Part shown: positions 7,422-39,592 of the stretch, one piece after another
Layout: each line of letters starts with the position of its first letter
Position numbering within the stretch: position 1 is the stretch's first letter
Assembly: GCA_900466605.1 (NCBI GenBank)
Contig: UBMU01000003.1
Location: 62,001 to 126,000, forward strand
Length of the DNA stretch: 64,000 nt
Direction: 5' to 3'
From: Hyphomicrobiales bacterium
GTDB lineage: Bacteria > Pseudomonadota > Alphaproteobacteria > Rhizobiales > Rhizobiaceae
Notes under the pieces: generated by a model
Database searches by the model: none
Told to the model about the DNA's origin: nothing
The model's input: the letters and a program-made list of their open reading frames with translations, nothing else
Translations under genes and position numbers: made by a program

Positions 7422-7612
7422 GGTCCGCCGCCGATTCCGTTCTCCCCTATTTAAGCCCTTTGTCGGCCGAAACCAATCAACTACCAGCCCTTATCCCTGC
7501 AAATCTCCGCTGCGACGCCGATCGCCACGTGGGGCAGAACACAGGTGCAGCGGCATATGTAGGCCCTTTCCGCCTCCCTGTGCTGCGACGACACGGTTTT
7601 GTGACAACACCT

Positions 7613-7641
7613 CTTCCCATCCATCGCGGAAAACACTATAT
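7613..7641 (+). promoter_or_regulatory. candidate promoter of ssrA
   Basis: CTTCCC (7613-7618), a 17-base spacer and CTATAT (7636-7641) match the rhizobial housekeeping pattern CTTGAC-N17-CTATAT at ten of twelve box positions. Transcription would begin near 7648, just before the first bases of the tmRNA acceptor piece. This placement supports the call. Confidence 0.65.
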
Positions 7642-7649
7642 CACCCATG

Positions 7650-7980
7650 CCGGTCCTCGGGCCGGCTATGGCGATAAATGAGCGGTGTAATAAACCTATT
7701 GGACCCGGGGGCGGTACCCGGCGCCTCCACCAAAAACCGGCGGCCTCGCAATGAGATGGCCGGCTTTTGATGGGGGCGAAACAGGATCGACAAGGGTGTA
7801 AAGATCGTCTTTTTGCTCGGCATTGTACCGCCGTTATCGGGCTAAAATTGTAGTTGCAAACGACAACTATGCGGAAGCTCGTCTCGCTGCTTAATCGCGG
7901 TGTGACACTTCAAATAAAGCCCTAGTGGTTCGCACCTCTAGGCGGGGTCCGAAGGCACCTGGCAACAGAAGCCTTCACCT
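7650..7980 (+). ncRNA. ssrA: tmRNA, circularly permuted two-piece form
   Basis: Rescues stalled ribosomes and adds a degradation tag. The gene is permuted as known for alphaproteobacteria: the acceptor piece comes first, with a T-arm (CCGGG / CCCGG, 7705-7721), acceptor strand CGCCTCC (7722-7728) and encoded CCA (7730-7732). A spacer containing a CCGGC/GCCGG hairpin follows and is presumably cut out. The coding piece begins GGGGGCG (7772-7778), which pairs over seven positions with the acceptor strand. The tag reading frame (7856-7894) reads ANDNYAEARLAA and a TAA stop. A CCTAG/CTAGG hairpin with pseudoknot potential (7922-7942) follows. Outer ends are estimates; the 3' end may be near 7950-7980. 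Confidence 0.93.
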
Positions 7981-35127: not shown

Positions 35128-36963
35128 CTAGTATTCCAGAGGCAGTGTGGCGTTTTCCAGCCATGCCTTGACGTCGCGGTCATGAATCAGCGGCATCAGC
35201 GCTTCGCGGGTGCGCTCATGGTAGCTGTTGAACCAGTGCAGTTCGTCGTGGCTCAGAAGTTCGGGAATGACGATGCTGCGATCGATCGGGCAGAAGGTCA
35301 GTGTCTCGAAGCCCAGCATTGGCATGTCGCCGCCGTCGATTGCCTCCGCCTCGCGGACATAAATCAAGTTCTCGATACGGATCCCGAAGGCGCCAGGGCG
35401 GTAGTAGCCGGGCTCGTTCGAGAGGATCATCCCCGGCAGCAATTCCTGCGTTGAAAGCCTGGCGATGCGCTGCGGACCCTCGTGTACCGAAAGGTAGGAT
35501 CCGACGCCGTGACCGGTGCCATGGGCGAAATCGACCCCTGCCCGCCAGAGCGCAATGCGGGCCAGCGGATCGAGGTCGCAGCCGCGCGTGCCTTTCGGAA
35601 AGCGGGCGGTGCTGATCTGGATCATCCCCTTCAGCACCAGCGTGAAGAAGCGCTTATGCTCCTCGGTGACCGAACCAATGCCCACGGTGCGCGTAATGTC
35701 GGTCGTGCCGTTGATGTATTGCGCACCGGAATCGATCAGGAAAAGCTCTCCGGCTTCCAGCTTGCGGTTCGTTTCTGTCGTAACACGATAATGCATGATC
35801 GCCGCGTGCTCGCCGGCACCGGAGATCGAGTCGAAGGAAATATCCTTCAGCGGGTTCTGCATGCTTTGGCCGACGCGGGCGCGTGCCGCTTCCAGCTTCT
35901 CCGCCACCTCGATTTCAGTCACGGTCCCGGGTTTCGTCTGCGACAGCCAATAGAGAAATTCGACCATTGCCGCACCGTCCTGCAGATGCGCAGCCGCAGA
36001 ACCATTGATCTCGACGCCGTTCTTGACGGCCCGAGGCAGCTTTGCGGGATCATTCCCTTCCACAACCTCGCCGCCCGCCTTGCGAATGATCTCCGCCAAG
36101 GCATACGAGGTCAGGTCCGGATCCACCAGGACTCGACCTCCATCCTTTGCAACAGCCGACAGTTTTTTCTCGAGTTCCGACGGCGGAAGCTGCATGCACA
36201 TCTGCGCAAGATAGGCTTCAGCCTCGATCCCGGTCTTGCGTTTGTCGAGGAAGAGATCCGCCTGGCCGTCGGCATAGACAACCGCGCGTGCCAGCGGGTG
36301 AGGCGTATGCGGCACGTCGGCACCGCGGATATTGAATATCCAGGCTACCGAAGACGGATCTGCGATAAGCCCCGCCCTCAGGTTCTTCTTTGCAAGATCG
36401 GCCGCGATCGTTGCGATCTTGTCGGTCGCGAGCACGCCCGCCTGCACAATGTTCTGGATTGCCACCTGGCCCAGCGGTTCCTGCGGTCGGTCGCTCCAGA
36501 GCTTGTCGAGCGGATTGTGGGGCAGGACAACGAGCGAACCACCGATCTCGGCAAGCGCCTTCTCCAGTCGCCGCACCTCTACGCCGGAATGCAGCCAGGG
36601 ATCGATGCCGAGGCGCAGGCCCTTCGAGCCGTTCTTCGCAAGCCAGGCGTGAGGCGGTTCGTTCACAAGGTCTCCGCCGGTAAAGACGGTGTTGTCCACC
36701 TGCTCCGCAAGTTGCGTCACGTAGCGCCCGTCCACGAAGACGATCGCCGCCGAGCGCGTCACCAGCGCGACCCCCGCCGACCCTGTGAAGCCCGTCAGCC
36801 AGGACAAGCGCTCCGAACATGCCGGGACATATTCGCCGTTAAACTCGTCGGCGCGAGGCACAAGAAAGGCGTCAATGCCAAGCGCATCGAAACTTGCCCG
36901 CAAGGCCGATACGCGATCACGGCCGAATTGTGGCGTCGAAGTGACTTCGAAAGACTGGAACAT
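35128..36963 (-). CDS. M24-family Xaa-Pro aminopeptidase
   Basis: A 611-residue metallopeptidase that removes an N-terminal residue preceding proline. It has the long three-domain layout of eukaryote-like aminopeptidase P: two creatinase-like N-terminal domains and a C-terminal pita-bread domain with dinuclear metal site, seen in FLIDSGAQYINGTTDITRTVG (metal Asp residues), GTGHGVGSYLSVHEGP (His), and EPGYYRPGAFGIRIENL (Glu). I prefer the ATG at 36963 to the TTG two codons upstream. It stands alone, with azlD convergent on one side and the small-RNA locus divergent on the other. Confidence 0.92.
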   Translation of the reverse strand: MFQSFEVTSTPQFGRDRVSALRASFDALGIDAFLVPRADEFNGEYVPACSERLSWLTGFTGSAGVALVTRSAAIVFVDGRYVTQLAEQVDNTVFTGGDLVNEPPHAWLAKNGSKGLRLGIDPWLHSGVEVRRLEKALAEIGGSLVVLPHNPLDKLWSDRPQEPLGQVAIQNIVQAGVLATDKIATIAADLAKKNLRAGLIADPSSVAWIFNIRGADVPHTPHPLARAVVYADGQADLFLDKRKTGIEAEAYLAQMCMQLPPSELEKKLSAVAKDGGRVLVDPDLTSYALAEIIRKAGGEVVEGNDPAKLPRAVKNGVEINGSAAAHLQDGAAMVEFLYWLSQTKPGTVTEIEVAEKLEAARARVGQSMQNPLKDISFDSISGAGEHAAIMHYRVTTETNRKLEAGELFLIDSGAQYINGTTDITRTVGIGSVTEEHKRFFTLVLKGMIQISTARFPKGTRGCDLDPLARIALWRAGVDFAHGTGHGVGSYLSVHEGPQRIARLSTQELLPGMILSNEPGYYRPGAFGIRIENLIYVREAEAIDGGDMPMLGFETLTFCPIDRSIVIPELLSHDELHWFNSYHERTREALMPLIHDRDVKAWLENATLPLEY

Positions 36964-37113
36964 GCTCAATAACCCGGTTTCTTGTACGAATCCCCTGCGG
37001 AGGGATTCGGCTATGTTATCGGAATTTCAGGCGAATACGAGAAATTCGCGGAGTGGTGCGTGAGGCCAAAGCCGCCCAATAATTCGGCGGAAATGAGGCG
37101 TACATTTACAAAC

Positions 37114-37128
37114 TGGCACGCTTTATGC
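37114..37128 (+). promoter_or_regulatory. near-consensus sigma-54 (RpoN) promoter
   Basis: TGGCACGCTTTATGC matches TGGCACG-N4-TTGC at every fixed position except one (A for T). The GG and GC doublets have the correct spacing. Transcription would begin near 37140, about 105 bases before the 57-residue ORF. No activator gene or obvious enhancer site was found nearby. Confidence 0.6.
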
Positions 37129-37182
37129 ATTCCGCGCATAGCTCCCATGAATGAAACCCTCTCCCTCATCTTTTCTAAATCG

Positions 37183-37188
37183 CTATAT
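37183..37188 (+). promoter_or_regulatory. candidate CTATAT -10 box
   Basis: CTATAT, the preferred rhizobial -10 sequence, lies 57 bases before the small ORF. The -35 region at the right distance (TCTCCC) is poor. It may give a second, housekeeping start. Confidence 0.45.
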
Positions 37189-37244
37189 AGGCGCCATCAG
37201 ACGGGTTCGAGACGAACCTGAAACGAAAGAAAAGGAATTCAGAT

Positions 37245-37418
37245 ATGACTGCCCCTCTGTCGCGCTTCGCTTACAGCAGCCCGGTACAGGCTGGCGAGCG
37301 CCAGACTGTGCGTCACGTCATCGGCTCGCGCCGCCCGCTGCATGAGGACACCCTCAAGCTGCTCGGCGCCGGCCAAAAGGTTACGCGCCACCAGGGCGCA
37401 ACCAGCTACGCGTTCTGA
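37245..37418 (+). CDS. 57-residue basic protein of unknown function
   Basis: An ORF starting MTAPLSRFAYSSPVQAGERQ and ending HQGATSYAF, with AAGGAA nine bases before the ATG. It is rich in Arg, His, Gln and Ser, has no membrane segment or signal peptide, and I recognise no family; it does not look like DUF1127. It lies between a sigma-54-like promoter and an RNA-rich 3' region with a strong terminator, giving a predicted monocistronic transcript of about 430 bases. Small proteins encoded upstream of anti-Shine-Dalgarno RNAs are known in Rhodobacter (CcaF1 upstream of CcsR), so the pairing may be functional. Codon use resembles the neighbours. Confidence 0.7.
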   Translation: MTAPLSRFAYSSPVQAGERQTVRHVIGSRRPLHEDTLKLLGAGQKVTRHQGATSYAF

Positions 37419-37423
37419 GCAAC

Positions 37424-37567
37424 TCGCCGCTCCCTTCTCCTCCTCCCTCACGGGACCGGCGATCAGAACCAGTAGAAGCCCGCTCGAGCGCTCCTCCTCC
37501 TTCGAGCTCGCGGGCATGACCGGGAAACTGGTCTCAAGGCGGTGCCATCGGCACCGCCTTTTCTTTT
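37424..37567 (+). ncRNA. candidate small RNA with two anti-Shine-Dalgarno hairpins (alpha-r14 / CcsR-like)
   Basis: Three stem-loops follow the small ORF. Hairpin 1 pairs TCGCCG (37424-37429) with CGGCGA (37457-37462); its loop holds CTCCTCCTCCC (37437-37447). Hairpin 2 pairs GCCCGC and GAGC (37478-37489) with GCTC and GCGGGC (37506-37515); its loop holds CTCCTCCTCC (37491-37500). Hairpin 3 is the terminator. Known alpha-r14 RNAs such as S. meliloti NfeR1, and CcsR RNAs of Rhodobacter, have this arrangement and pair with ribosome-binding sites of target mRNAs. The 5' end is unknown: no good internal promoter is seen, so it may be cut from the 3' end of the small-ORF mRNA. Confidence 0.68.
37536..37567 (+). 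terminator. strong Rho-independent terminator of the small-RNA locus
   Basis: Perfect 11-bp stem AAGGCGGTGCC / GGCACCGCCTT with an ATC loop, then TTTTCTTTT. It is oriented forward only; the reverse side has no T-run, so it belongs to the small ORF / RNA and not to prmA, whose stop lies five bases away. Confidence 0.9.
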
Positions 37568-37571
37568 GCGC

Positions 37572-38450
37572 TCAGGGACGGTCGAGATGGATCGTCACCC
37601 AGCCATTGCGCCAGATCGTACGGACATGCCGCAGATGCGCACCATTGTAGGCTGCAAGCACCTTCCAGCGCTGCGCGGCGAGAATACCGGAAAGGATGAC
37701 GGAGCCCCCGGGCGCCAGATGGTTGACGAGCTGCGGCGCCATCTTGATCAATGGTCGCGCCAGGATGTTGGCGATGATGAGGTCGAATGGACCGTTGGCG
37801 GCAAAAGTGGTGGAGTGAAAACCCGGCGCCGTCGCTGTCGAAATGCCTGAAGCTATGCCATTGCTTCTGACGTTCTCGGCTGCGACCCGGGTTGCGATCG
37901 GGTCAATATCGGTCGCGAGAACAGGAATGTTACGCAGTTTCCTGACTGCGATTGCCAGAACGCCGCTACCGGTCCCGAGGTCGAGTGCATTCCGTACCCG
38001 ACGAGACCGCAGAACGCGGTCGATTGTCTCGAGGCACCCTGCTGTCGTCCCGTGGTGACCGGTACCAAATGCCTGGCCCGCATCGATCTCGATTCCAATA
38101 TCGCCGGGCCGCACCTTATCGCGGTCGTGCGAACCGTGAACAAGAAACCGCCCTGCCCGAACCGGCTTCAGCCCCTCGAGTGATTTCGCCACCCAATCGA
38201 CATCGGGTATCACCTCACGCTCGACCTTGGTGTCGGGAAAGCTCGTCTTCAGCGCTTCCTCGACGCGCGAGCGAACCTCTGCCTCGTCTTCACGCATCAT
38301 GTAGACCGAGGCTTCCCAAATGTCTTTCTTCTCATCGATCTCAGTGGTCGCGATTGCGATGTCTTCCTCGCCGAAGACATCGGACAGCAGGTCGAGAATC
38401 TCACCTGCCTGCACTTCGGTCGTTGTCACATAAAGGCGTATTTCACTCAC
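37572..38450 (-). CDS. prmA: ribosomal protein L11 methyltransferase
   Basis: Trimethylates lysine and N-terminal amino groups of ribosomal protein L11 with SAM. The 292-residue protein has the N-terminal substrate-recognition domain and a Rossmann-type domain with GQAFGTGHHGTTAGCLETID, the SAM motif ALDLGTGSGVLAIA, and NILARPLIKMAP. The start is the GTG at 38450 giving MSEIRLYVTTTEV, where family similarity begins. It is the last gene of a three-gene reverse-strand run (SCO1-like, flavin monooxygenase, prmA), 14 bases after the monooxygenase stop. Confidence 0.94.
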   Translation of the reverse strand: MSEIRLYVTTTEVQAGEILDLLSDVFGEEDIAIATTEIDEKKDIWEASVYMMREDEAEVRSRVEEALKTSFPDTKVEREVIPDVDWVAKSLEGLKPVRAGRFLVHGSHDRDKVRPGDIGIEIDAGQAFGTGHHGTTAGCLETIDRVLRSRRVRNALDLGTGSGVLAIAVRKLRNIPVLATDIDPIATRVAAENVRSNGIASGISTATAPGFHSTTFAANGPFDLIIANILARPLIKMAPQLVNHLAPGGSVILSGILAAQRWKVLAAYNGAHLRHVRTIWRNGWVTIHLDRP

Positions 38451-38464
38451 AATCACTCTTTCTT

Positions 38465-39592
38465 CTATAGGGCGCCATCGATCCAAGGCGGTGACTGGGT
38501 ATCATATCCCGACACGCTGCGAAGCAATTTTTGCGAGAACGCAGGTATCCGAAAAATCAACGGTGCTGCAAGGTTTCGGATCGCGATTGACGCCGGATTG
38601 GTCATGGTAATCAGTGATGTCAACCGATACGTCTGCTTCAGCACTGCCTTAACGGCAGGCATCCGGAGCTCGCTATACTCCTTCTCCCGCCCCTGCGAGA
38701 TGAGCCAAGCCAGCCAGCATGCGTCCTCAATACCAAGGTTCATCCCGCGCGCACCAGCCGGCGAATGAATGTGCGCAGCGTCGCCGGCAAGAAACACGTT
38801 GCCTTTTGTCATCGTCTCAACATGACGGAAGTGAATACGGAAGTCCGACGCCCATACCCGCTCGGCGATAGGCGCGGGATGTTCAATGCGGCTCTCGAAA
38901 TCAGAAAGCGTCGAGATGTAGCGCAGCACGTCGCGCGTAACGGGAAGGCGCCCGATGATGCCGGGATCGACCAGGTTGATCTCGGCAAAACCCGGATCAA
39001 TCGGCACAGCGTAGCGAAAGTCCGCCAGATAGAAGCTGCTCTCCAGCGCCTCCCCGGGAAAGCCGATGCCGACAGCCTTGCGCACCGCCGAATGCGAACC
39101 GTCGGCTCCGACCACGATATCGAAATCTACGATTTCAACCGAGCCGTCCGCCTTCCGTAGCGTCACGCTTGGCTTTAAAAGATCGCCAGAAACCGCCTCC
39201 ACGACGGTATTCCACTCAGGAACGATTTCGTAATCGGAGAGCTTACCGAGCAGCAAGCGCTCTGTATGGCCCTGTGCCAATGCATGGATCGCGCTGTAGG
39301 GGCCGGGAACCTTGGTCGTGTCGAGATCGACAAGCAGCCGGCCCCTGGAAGTAATCCGGAACCGTGCGAGCTGCTGTGCTTCCTGCAGTATTACATCGGT
39401 CACGCGCGAGGGTGAAAGCAGCGTCAGTGTTCTGGCATTGATGCCGAGCGCGCGGCTCTCCGTGAGCGGCACGGGGCCGGCGCCGCTTGCGACGATACGG
39501 GCAAGGAAACCCCGCCTTGCAAGCTCGAGGGCAGCAGTCAGACCCGTCGCACCGGCCCCGGCGATCAAGATGCTGCGATGCCCCGACGCCAT
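38465..39592 (-). CDS. FAD-dependent monooxygenase (UbiH/PHBH-like)
   Basis: A 375-residue flavoprotein of the FAD_binding_3 group, aromatic-ring hydroxylases and relatives. Landmarks are the dinucleotide-binding start ILIAGAGATGLTAALELARRG, the DG motif VVGADGSHSAVRKAVGIGFP, and the second FAD motif NVFLAGDAAHIHSPAGARGMN. It lies four bases after the SCO1-like gene and 14 before prmA, so it is cotranscribed with both, although no shared pathway is obvious. Substrate unknown. Confidence 0.88.
   Translation of the reverse strand: MASGHRSILIAGAGATGLTAALELARRGFLARIVASGAGPVPLTESRALGINARTLTLLSPSRVTDVILQEAQQLARFRITSRGRLLVDLDTTKVPGPYSAIHALAQGHTERLLLGKLSDYEIVPEWNTVVEAVSGDLLKPSVTLRKADGSVEIVDFDIVVGADGSHSAVRKAVGIGFPGEALESSFYLADFRYAVPIDPGFAEINLVDPGIIGRLPVTRDVLRYISTLSDFESRIEHPAPIAERVWASDFRIHFRHVETMTKGNVFLAGDAAHIHSPAGARGMNLGIEDACWLAWLISQGREKEYSELRMPAVKAVLKQTYRLTSLITMTNPASIAIRNLAAPLIFRIPAFSQKLLRSVSGYDTQSPPWIDGAL

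Follow-up and report, generated by a model that had tools for sequence, protein, structure and literature searches.

The 64-kb window (the whole stretch of DNA analysed) carries, between the genes pepP and prmA, a forward-strand unit composed of an operator-like site, a -10 box, a leader hairpin, a 57-aa ORF and four hairpins, the last of which is an intrinsic terminator (Table 1). In a scan of the window at the Rfam gathering thresholds, tmRNA alone was found (two overlapping models). This alphaproteobacterial (permuted) tmRNA gene (7610-7979; 302 bits) is located ~30 kb from the candidate sRNA.

Table 1. Features of the pepP-prmA intergenic unit and its flanking genes in the 64-kb window.
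Feature	Position	Strand	Basis or remarks
pepP (M24 aminopeptidase), syntenic flank	35128..36969	-	Pfam
Predicted LsrB/VtlR operator TGCATTCCGCGCAT (TGCA-N6-GCAT), followed by AGCTCCCATGA	37126..37139	+	Sequence match
-10 box CTATAT	37183..37188	+	Region conserved in the upstream alignment
Predicted transcription start	~37195	+	Estimated from spacing
Small 5' leader hairpin GGGTTCGAGACGAACCT	37203..37219	+	Fold of the predicted transcript; GGTTC..GAACC columns largely conserved
57-aa ORF MTAPLSRFAYSS...TSYAF	37245..37418	+	Stop TGA 37416-37418; AGGA ribosome site upstream
Hairpin 1	37406..37475	+	End of the ORF (last codons and stop) forms the 5' arm
Anti-Shine-Dalgarno loop 1, CTCCTCCTCCC	37437..37447	+	Unpaired in the fold
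Hairpin 2, GCCCGC-GAGC stem	37478..37515	+	Fold; two-sided changes in 6/10 pairs
Anti-Shine-Dalgarno loop 2, CTCCTCCTCC	37491..37500	+	Unpaired in the fold
Hairpin 3, without anti-Shine-Dalgarno motif	~37518..37533	+	Fold; two-sided changes in 4/6 pairs
Intrinsic terminator, 11 bp	Hairpin 37536-37560, with tail to 37567	+	11 pairs; tail TTCTTTTG / TTTTCTTTT; loop without anti-Shine-Dalgarno motif
prmA (ribosomal protein L11 methyltransferase), convergent syntenic flank	37572..38486	-	Pfam

The region 37400-37580 folds at -78.8 kcal/mol (z = -4.69), a stability equalled in none of 200 shuffled sequences, and this fold and the positions of the loops confirmed the sequence-only reading in its central claim of two hairpins with CU-rich loops followed by an 11-bp terminator with a T tail. 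Its layout of three hairpins has to be amended to four, hairpin 3 having been overlooked, and the structure begins within the ORF, at ~37406, rather than at 37424. The RNA had also been placed directly after the short ORF; it does lie at the 3' end of the short-ORF transcript, but hairpin 1 overlaps the end of the ORF. CTCCTCCTCC(C) is displayed in the loops of hairpins 1 and 2, whereas those of hairpin 3 and the terminator are without it. Ten overlapping CTCCTCC matches occur on the forward strand of the window, four of them in these two loops, and none on the reverse strand. The spacing of two CTCCTCC runs alone is not rare, since a search of the same genome for two such runs 30-58 nt apart gave 17 matches as against nine for a reversed control pattern. 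These 17 matches fall at seven places, comprising five ar14 RNAs, the window RNA and one place on contig C40 that is neither (G000:C40:65470-65524; L092), where two spaced CTCCTCC runs occur that are not among the ar14 matches.

Seventy of the 72 loci found in Rhizobium were compared (G004 and G044 were left out). At least two CU runs are present in all 70 when TCCTCC is allowed and two strict CTCCTCC runs in 68, while the first two runs are at least 70% unpaired in the folds of 68/70 loci. Conservation of the loops, which had been named beforehand as the point on which the proposal of a small RNA could fall, was thus borne out within the genus (68/70, strict), and it extends beyond it. Two-sided changes were observed in 15 of the 32 consensus pairs, compared to a mean of 4.5 in shuffled controls, none of 500 reaching this number, and one to five in slid controls, with the reservation that the alignment used for the count had also yielded the structure, which biases the count in its favour. 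This alignment (A2) comprises 52 of the 64 distinct sequences extracted; L038, L041 and L042, which missed the extraction pattern, were excluded. These data support a conserved RNA structure that exposes two anti-Shine-Dalgarno loops and forms the 3' part of the transcript with the short ORF.

Matches to the 57-aa ORF were found in 72 of 120 relatives searched, namely all 72 members of the genus (own genome included) and none of the 48 others. The median dN/dS in frame is 0.215 (42 loci; 836 of 861 pairs with enough synonymous change), whereas the shifted frames give 1.86 (539 pairs) and 2.33 (449 pairs). The ORF is a protein under selection in Rhizobium, suggesting that the protein is possibly the main product in this genus. 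No match to DUF1127 in Pfam, and none to any NCBIfam model, was obtained with the ORF and its relatives. When compared with five DUF1127 proteins of this genome using hhalign, the ORFs of seven relatives reached 78% and the Rhizobium ORFs directly 32%; as both databases were negative and the profile comparison was suggestive at most, assignment to DUF1127 was not accepted.

The 5' arm of hairpin 1 contains the stop codon and the two codons preceding it, and the third base of the alanine (GCN) codon is paired in the folds of all 70 loci (GC in 31, GU in 23 and AU in 16). Changes at this third base are mostly synonymous and are tracked by the 3' arm of the hairpin. This arrangement, with synonymous changes that keep the pairing, would be in line with an attenuator-like gating of the RNA by translation, where a ribosome terminating at 37416-37418 would open hairpin 1 at its base and so couple synthesis of the protein to maturation of the sRNA. 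In all 17 of the loci L054-L070, however, the ORF ends 10-12 nt ahead of hairpin 1, and the stem nucleotides are nonetheless kept. The overlap of ORF and stem is therefore not required everywhere, and while a terminating ribosome could still reach the stem in these loci, we regard such gating as very improbable.

The predicted operator occupies positions -70 to -57 relative to the predicted transcription start, and TGCA-N6-GCAT occurs within 160 nt upstream in 64/70 Rhizobium loci. As this sequence is found three times in the 64-kb window, the operator-like site alone is weak evidence. The -35 region matches the consensus poorly, and a strict TTGACA/TATAAT scan of 37050-37650 gave no site, a negative that says little because the scan missed the proposed promoter too. 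On the window's own contig (L308; G000:C56, ~289 kb), tandem suhB/AbcR-type RNAs adjoin an LsrB-like LysR gene, which we take to be LsrB on account of its place beside these RNAs and its sequence features rather than any database match. The promoter of the first of these RNAs also contains TGCA-N6-GCAT. Among the five ar14 RNAs of this genome, this operator form is present only in the C70 copy, within the 140 nt examined. TGC-N7-GCAT, in turn, is present in the 420 nt upstream of 34/40 loci from other genera of the family (described below) and is absent from this interval in six; many of these loci read TGC-N7-GCATGGC(T/A)CCCATG.

In Sinorhizobium meliloti, the NfeR1 site bound by LsrB is TGCA-N6-GCAT within -72 to -57 and the -10 of the NfeR1 promoter is CTATAT (PMC10746234), and the same -10 has been described for AbcR1. 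The window promoter resembles that of NfeR1 in both elements, with TGCA-N6-GCAT upstream of CTATAT, as would be expected of an ar14-type promoter. Some of the family loci have TGCATGGCT in common with the Brucella VtlR box CAATGCAGCCATGCA when the latter is read as its reverse complement (PMC12595884). An exact match to GCAT-N3-TG-N3-T, the other consensus in print (PMC7486931), is not present in the window operator. From these sequence matches we infer that the window promoter would be controlled by LsrB/VtlR.

A covariance model of the RNA (R1) found one strong match in its own genome (165.6 bits, the window being in the training set), the next scoring 28.2 bits. Among 297 genomes drawn from the family, R1 matched in 80 at E<=0.001 and in 63 at E<1e-6, the latter number including five from the model's own genus and leaving out 17 genomes with only weak matches; at E<=9e-10 there were 62 genomes, spread over 22 of 109 genera in the draw. 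In the remaining 217 of the 297, no R1 match at E<=0.001 was obtained under the filters used. In an order-wide draw of 297 genomes under stricter filters, all strong matches fell within the same family; those outside it were weak (best 31.8 bits), some to the terminator only, and were not counted. No match was found in a viral collection. From the 58 matching genomes of other genera, 40 loci were taken, none of which was in the training set. Within ~1 kb of the RNA, pepP is present in 36/40 and prmA in 34/40, and 39/40 have at least one of the two, so that the family loci look orthologous. The single locus with neither neighbour, L184, is also the weakest match (37.0 bits) and was taken as a chance match rather than a family member. 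The window RNA matches the model and adjoins these neighbours, and so belongs to the pepP-prmA family as defined in the present work.

A pattern scan, which selects for hairpin 2, gave at least 117 matches, and 20 named loci among them were compared with R1. Seventeen scored 76-166 bits and are labelled Rhizobium, Sinorhizobium, Ensifer, Shinella, Neorhizobium, Pararhizobium, Gellertiella or Rhizobiales; two of these (R. cauense and BK399) are loci already in the genus set. The three remaining pattern matches, which are unrelated, gave no R1 score at E<=1e-4. The sequence lineage is single-copy, is located at a fixed pepP-prmA site and is kept beyond the genus.

The 40 family loci differ in what precedes the RNA. 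Promoter and RNA are separated by an ORF in 14, no comparable ORF is found in 25 and one is the chance match, where absence of an ORF means that there is no room for one or none resembling the others; short mechanical ORFs that extend into the RNA (for example in L151 and L155) were left uncounted. Among the 34 loci with a site, TGC-N7-GCAT stands 95-164 nt from the RNA where no ORF is present and 255-345 nt from it where there is one, and 22 of the 25 loci without an ORF have the operator-like site at the shorter distance. Seven of the 14 family ORFs, used as a profile that left out L149, L176 and L180, matched eight Rhizobium ORFs over the full length in hhalign (98.2%), and one pair gave a BLAST E of 5e-15. 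In L179 and L183, a different-looking small ORF precedes the RNA (MTSPIRTSAPTRA.. and MTSQIRTTEPTRA.., respectively), suggesting that the coding part may have been replaced there.

The hairpins could, alternatively, serve a protein that is the sole functional product, acting as a stabilising 3' UTR and terminator whose CU loops shield the message or adjust its own translation. The dN/dS of 0.215 and the presence of the ORF in every one of the 72 genus genomes searched would be expected if this were so. Such a role is, however, difficult to reconcile with an RNA that occurs without a comparable ORF in 25/40 family loci, 22 of them with the operator-like site nearby, or with the stem nucleotides kept in L054-L070 where the ORF ends short of hairpin 1, and we consider it unlikely.

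On a prmA tree with 48 rows, of which 34 are family loci and 14 Rhizobium, the ORF label needs seven changes, compared to a mean of 16.2 when labels are shuffled. Well-supported branches force at least two of these changes, in a quick tree where many branches are weak. Since homologous ORFs occur in separate lineages, repeated loss of the ORF would be likelier than repeated gain, and some related genera seem to retain the RNA alone, after loss of the protein. A fuller proposal, which we put forward tentatively and would at present sooner doubt than accept, is that a regulator-controlled mRNA combines a small-protein gene with an anti-Shine-Dalgarno sRNA, the last codons lying in the first stem, and that the coding part has been shed repeatedly to leave a stand-alone sRNA.

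It is probable, in our assessment, that the ~370-nt transcript from promoter to terminator is both the mRNA of the 57-aa protein and the source of an sRNA that base-pairs with the Shine-Dalgarno regions of its targets, and that the ORF is dispensable. Transcription would start at ~37195 from the promoter with the LsrB/VtlR-type operator, predicted to be bound by LsrB, and the transcript would be translated into the 57-aa protein. The same transcript may yield an sRNA of ~160 nt (hairpins 1-3 and terminator) through 5' processing at ~37404, the point within the ORF at which the structure starts. Production of the sRNA by cutting of the mRNA 3' end is plausible because the conserved promoter region precedes the ORF. 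The two CUCCUCC loops could then pair with the Shine-Dalgarno regions of target mRNAs and so block their translation and/or hasten their decay, while in many relatives transcription would start shortly before hairpin 1, dispensing with the ORF. CU-rich loops in a 3' UTR need not be trans-acting. In S. meliloti, the anti-Shine-Dalgarno motifs of AbcR1/2 and NfeR1 are reported to act on ribosome-binding regions, often of transporter mRNAs (PMC8844928, PMC10746234, PMC7143759), and by analogy the window RNA would be expected to act likewise and most likely to respond to stress or nutrients.

An sRNA of this kind would extend the anti-Shine-Dalgarno RNAs by a single-copy lineage that is widely kept and probably tied to LsrB, a regulator of root colonisation and stress. 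The passage from an mRNA with an embedded RNA to the RNA alone would form a natural series at one site, in which small-protein genes may turn into sRNA genes. Small genes activated by VtlR include atu1667, BAB1_0914 and BAB2_0512. Like these small ORFs, which are directly activated by LsrB/VtlR (PMC7486931), the window ORF is predicted to be under such control, a likeness to be taken as a lead only. Whether atu1667 acts as a protein or an RNA was left open in that report, and the present locus bears on this question; if the proposed reading is true, 3' RNAs could, in other Rhizobiales, partly underlie phenotypes that have been put down to 'small proteins' activated by LsrB/VtlR.

In S. meliloti 4H41, the ortholog (L238; 106.9 bits) is located between pepP and prmA with no room for such an ORF before the RNA, on the strand opposite to the tmRNA and ~26.5 kb from it. 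The distances from its predicted start to the chosen ends at two terminators are 193 and 241 nt. The published transcript Sm26 lies between SMc04453< and SMc01885>, on the '<' strand, and gave Northern bands of ~135 and ~200 nt (PMC2573895), and SmelC531 occupies 2321050-2321287 on the '-' strand (238 nt; PMC2873474). The gene order SMc04453< sm26< SMc01885> and the strand fit the 4H41 locus, as does the span of ~240 nt from the start to the second terminator compared to the 238 nt published for SmelC531. The published intergenic length (1270) and the position of the microarray probe fit poorly. The distance to the tmRNA differs by 3.4 kb between the strains, and the alternative place in 4H41 is taken up by coding genes. 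On the basis of coordinates, strand and gene order rather than sequence, the S. meliloti copy is likely to be Sm26/SmelC531. A small HNH-like ORF (named by inspection) is also present between prmA and the RNA in 4H41 (L238:3273-3599).

Sm26/SmelC531 was published as an intergenic or antisense transcript, and the available portions of the two reports (PMC2573895, PMC2873474) do not mention anti-Shine-Dalgarno loops, LsrB control or an ORF-bearing form. Neither prmA nor sm26 is mentioned in the corresponding text of an R. etli tiling-array paper (PMC2881028). In the open-licence literature, an LsrB-linked unit of small protein and anti-Shine-Dalgarno RNA was not found, only NfeR1 and AbcR; a 2015 paper on cuckoo RNAs may list the locus. 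Within the literature available, no description was thus found of the anti-Shine-Dalgarno loops of this locus, its promoter of the LsrB type, the form that bears an ORF or its conservation across the family.

The layout of the RNA had been equated with that of alpha-r14 and CcsR RNAs, a claim that does not hold for the window: the hairpins number four, the motif is missing from the terminator loop and both scores fall below the cut-offs. The covariance search that had been proposed for this comparison gave 24.5 bits with Rfam ar14 (RF02344), or 19.6 in the whole-genome search, against a cut-off of 58.8, and 12.6 bits with CcsR1 (RF02791), against 65.3, although one syntenic locus of the family does pass the ar14 cut-off. 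The RNA was therefore not filed as CcsR1, on score, or as ar14, on score and the number of hairpins with the motif (two of four). In an ar14 scan of 18 family loci, L172 scored 59.0, L177 58.6, L180 53.1, L176 49.9 and L161 39.3 bits; the other 13 had no ar14 match at E<=0.05, and the S. meliloti 4H41 locus had none at E<=1. In the syntenic loci L172 and L177 the motif is present in the terminator loop too, which, with their scores, makes shared descent with ar14 likely, although the 13 family loci and the S. meliloti locus that gave no ar14 match speak against it.

A true alpha-r14 (NfeR1) paralogue that is poorly scored by the Rfam model would share the loop motif and the kind of promoter, as the window RNA does, and the near-threshold scores of L172 and L177 are in keeping with one. 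It would, however, be expected to have three anti-Shine-Dalgarno loops rather than two, with the motif in the terminator loop, and to be matched in more than five of 18 family loci; moreover, five separate ar14 RNAs above the cut-off exist in the same genome alongside the one copy of the window RNA. Such a paralogue is therefore distinctly unlikely. The best reading is that of a divergent single-copy lineage of the alpha-r14/'cuckoo' anti-Shine-Dalgarno RNAs, which in Rhizobium is part of a small-ORF mRNA. Like alpha-r14/'cuckoo' RNAs, including NfeR1, it exposes the CCUCCUCCC anti-Shine-Dalgarno motif in hairpin loops. Alpha-r14 RNAs have three hairpins, each with unpaired CCUCCUCCC, whereas the window RNA has the motif in two of four and a plain terminator loop, is single-copy at pepP-prmA and is preceded by an ORF in Rhizobium.

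The RFMSmelA075/RFMSmelA099 RNAs of the Rhizobiales have the motif in every hairpin loop and several copies per genome (PMC3927594). They are so broadly defined, in the text available, that the window RNA could be counted in, yet it differs in having the motif in two of four hairpin loops and one copy. In the ccaF1-CcsR1-4 transcript of Rhodobacter sphaeroides, anti-Shine-Dalgarno RNAs are cut from the 3' UTR of a small ORF (PMC8625941). The window has the same order of a small ORF followed by an anti-Shine-Dalgarno RNA in the 3' part, with cutting known for ccaF1-CcsR; unlike ccaF1-CcsR1-4, its ORF has no Pfam DUF1127 match, and it contains one RNA unit as against four (going by the name CcsR1-4). 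Members of the CcsR group (RF02791) would be expected to follow a DUF1127 gene, in its 3' UTR, and to be freed from the mRNA by RNase E. PmaR of Agrobacterium, said to occur only in that genus and a single Rhizobium strain (PMC6234868), and RcsR1, transcribed from the trpL position (PMC7143759), were considered and rejected. Elsewhere in this genome (L084/L082; G000:C87:250991-252081), an ar14 RNA above the cut-off adjoins two DUF1127 genes, one of which is directly followed by a weak ar14 match that stays below the cut-off (29.7 bits).
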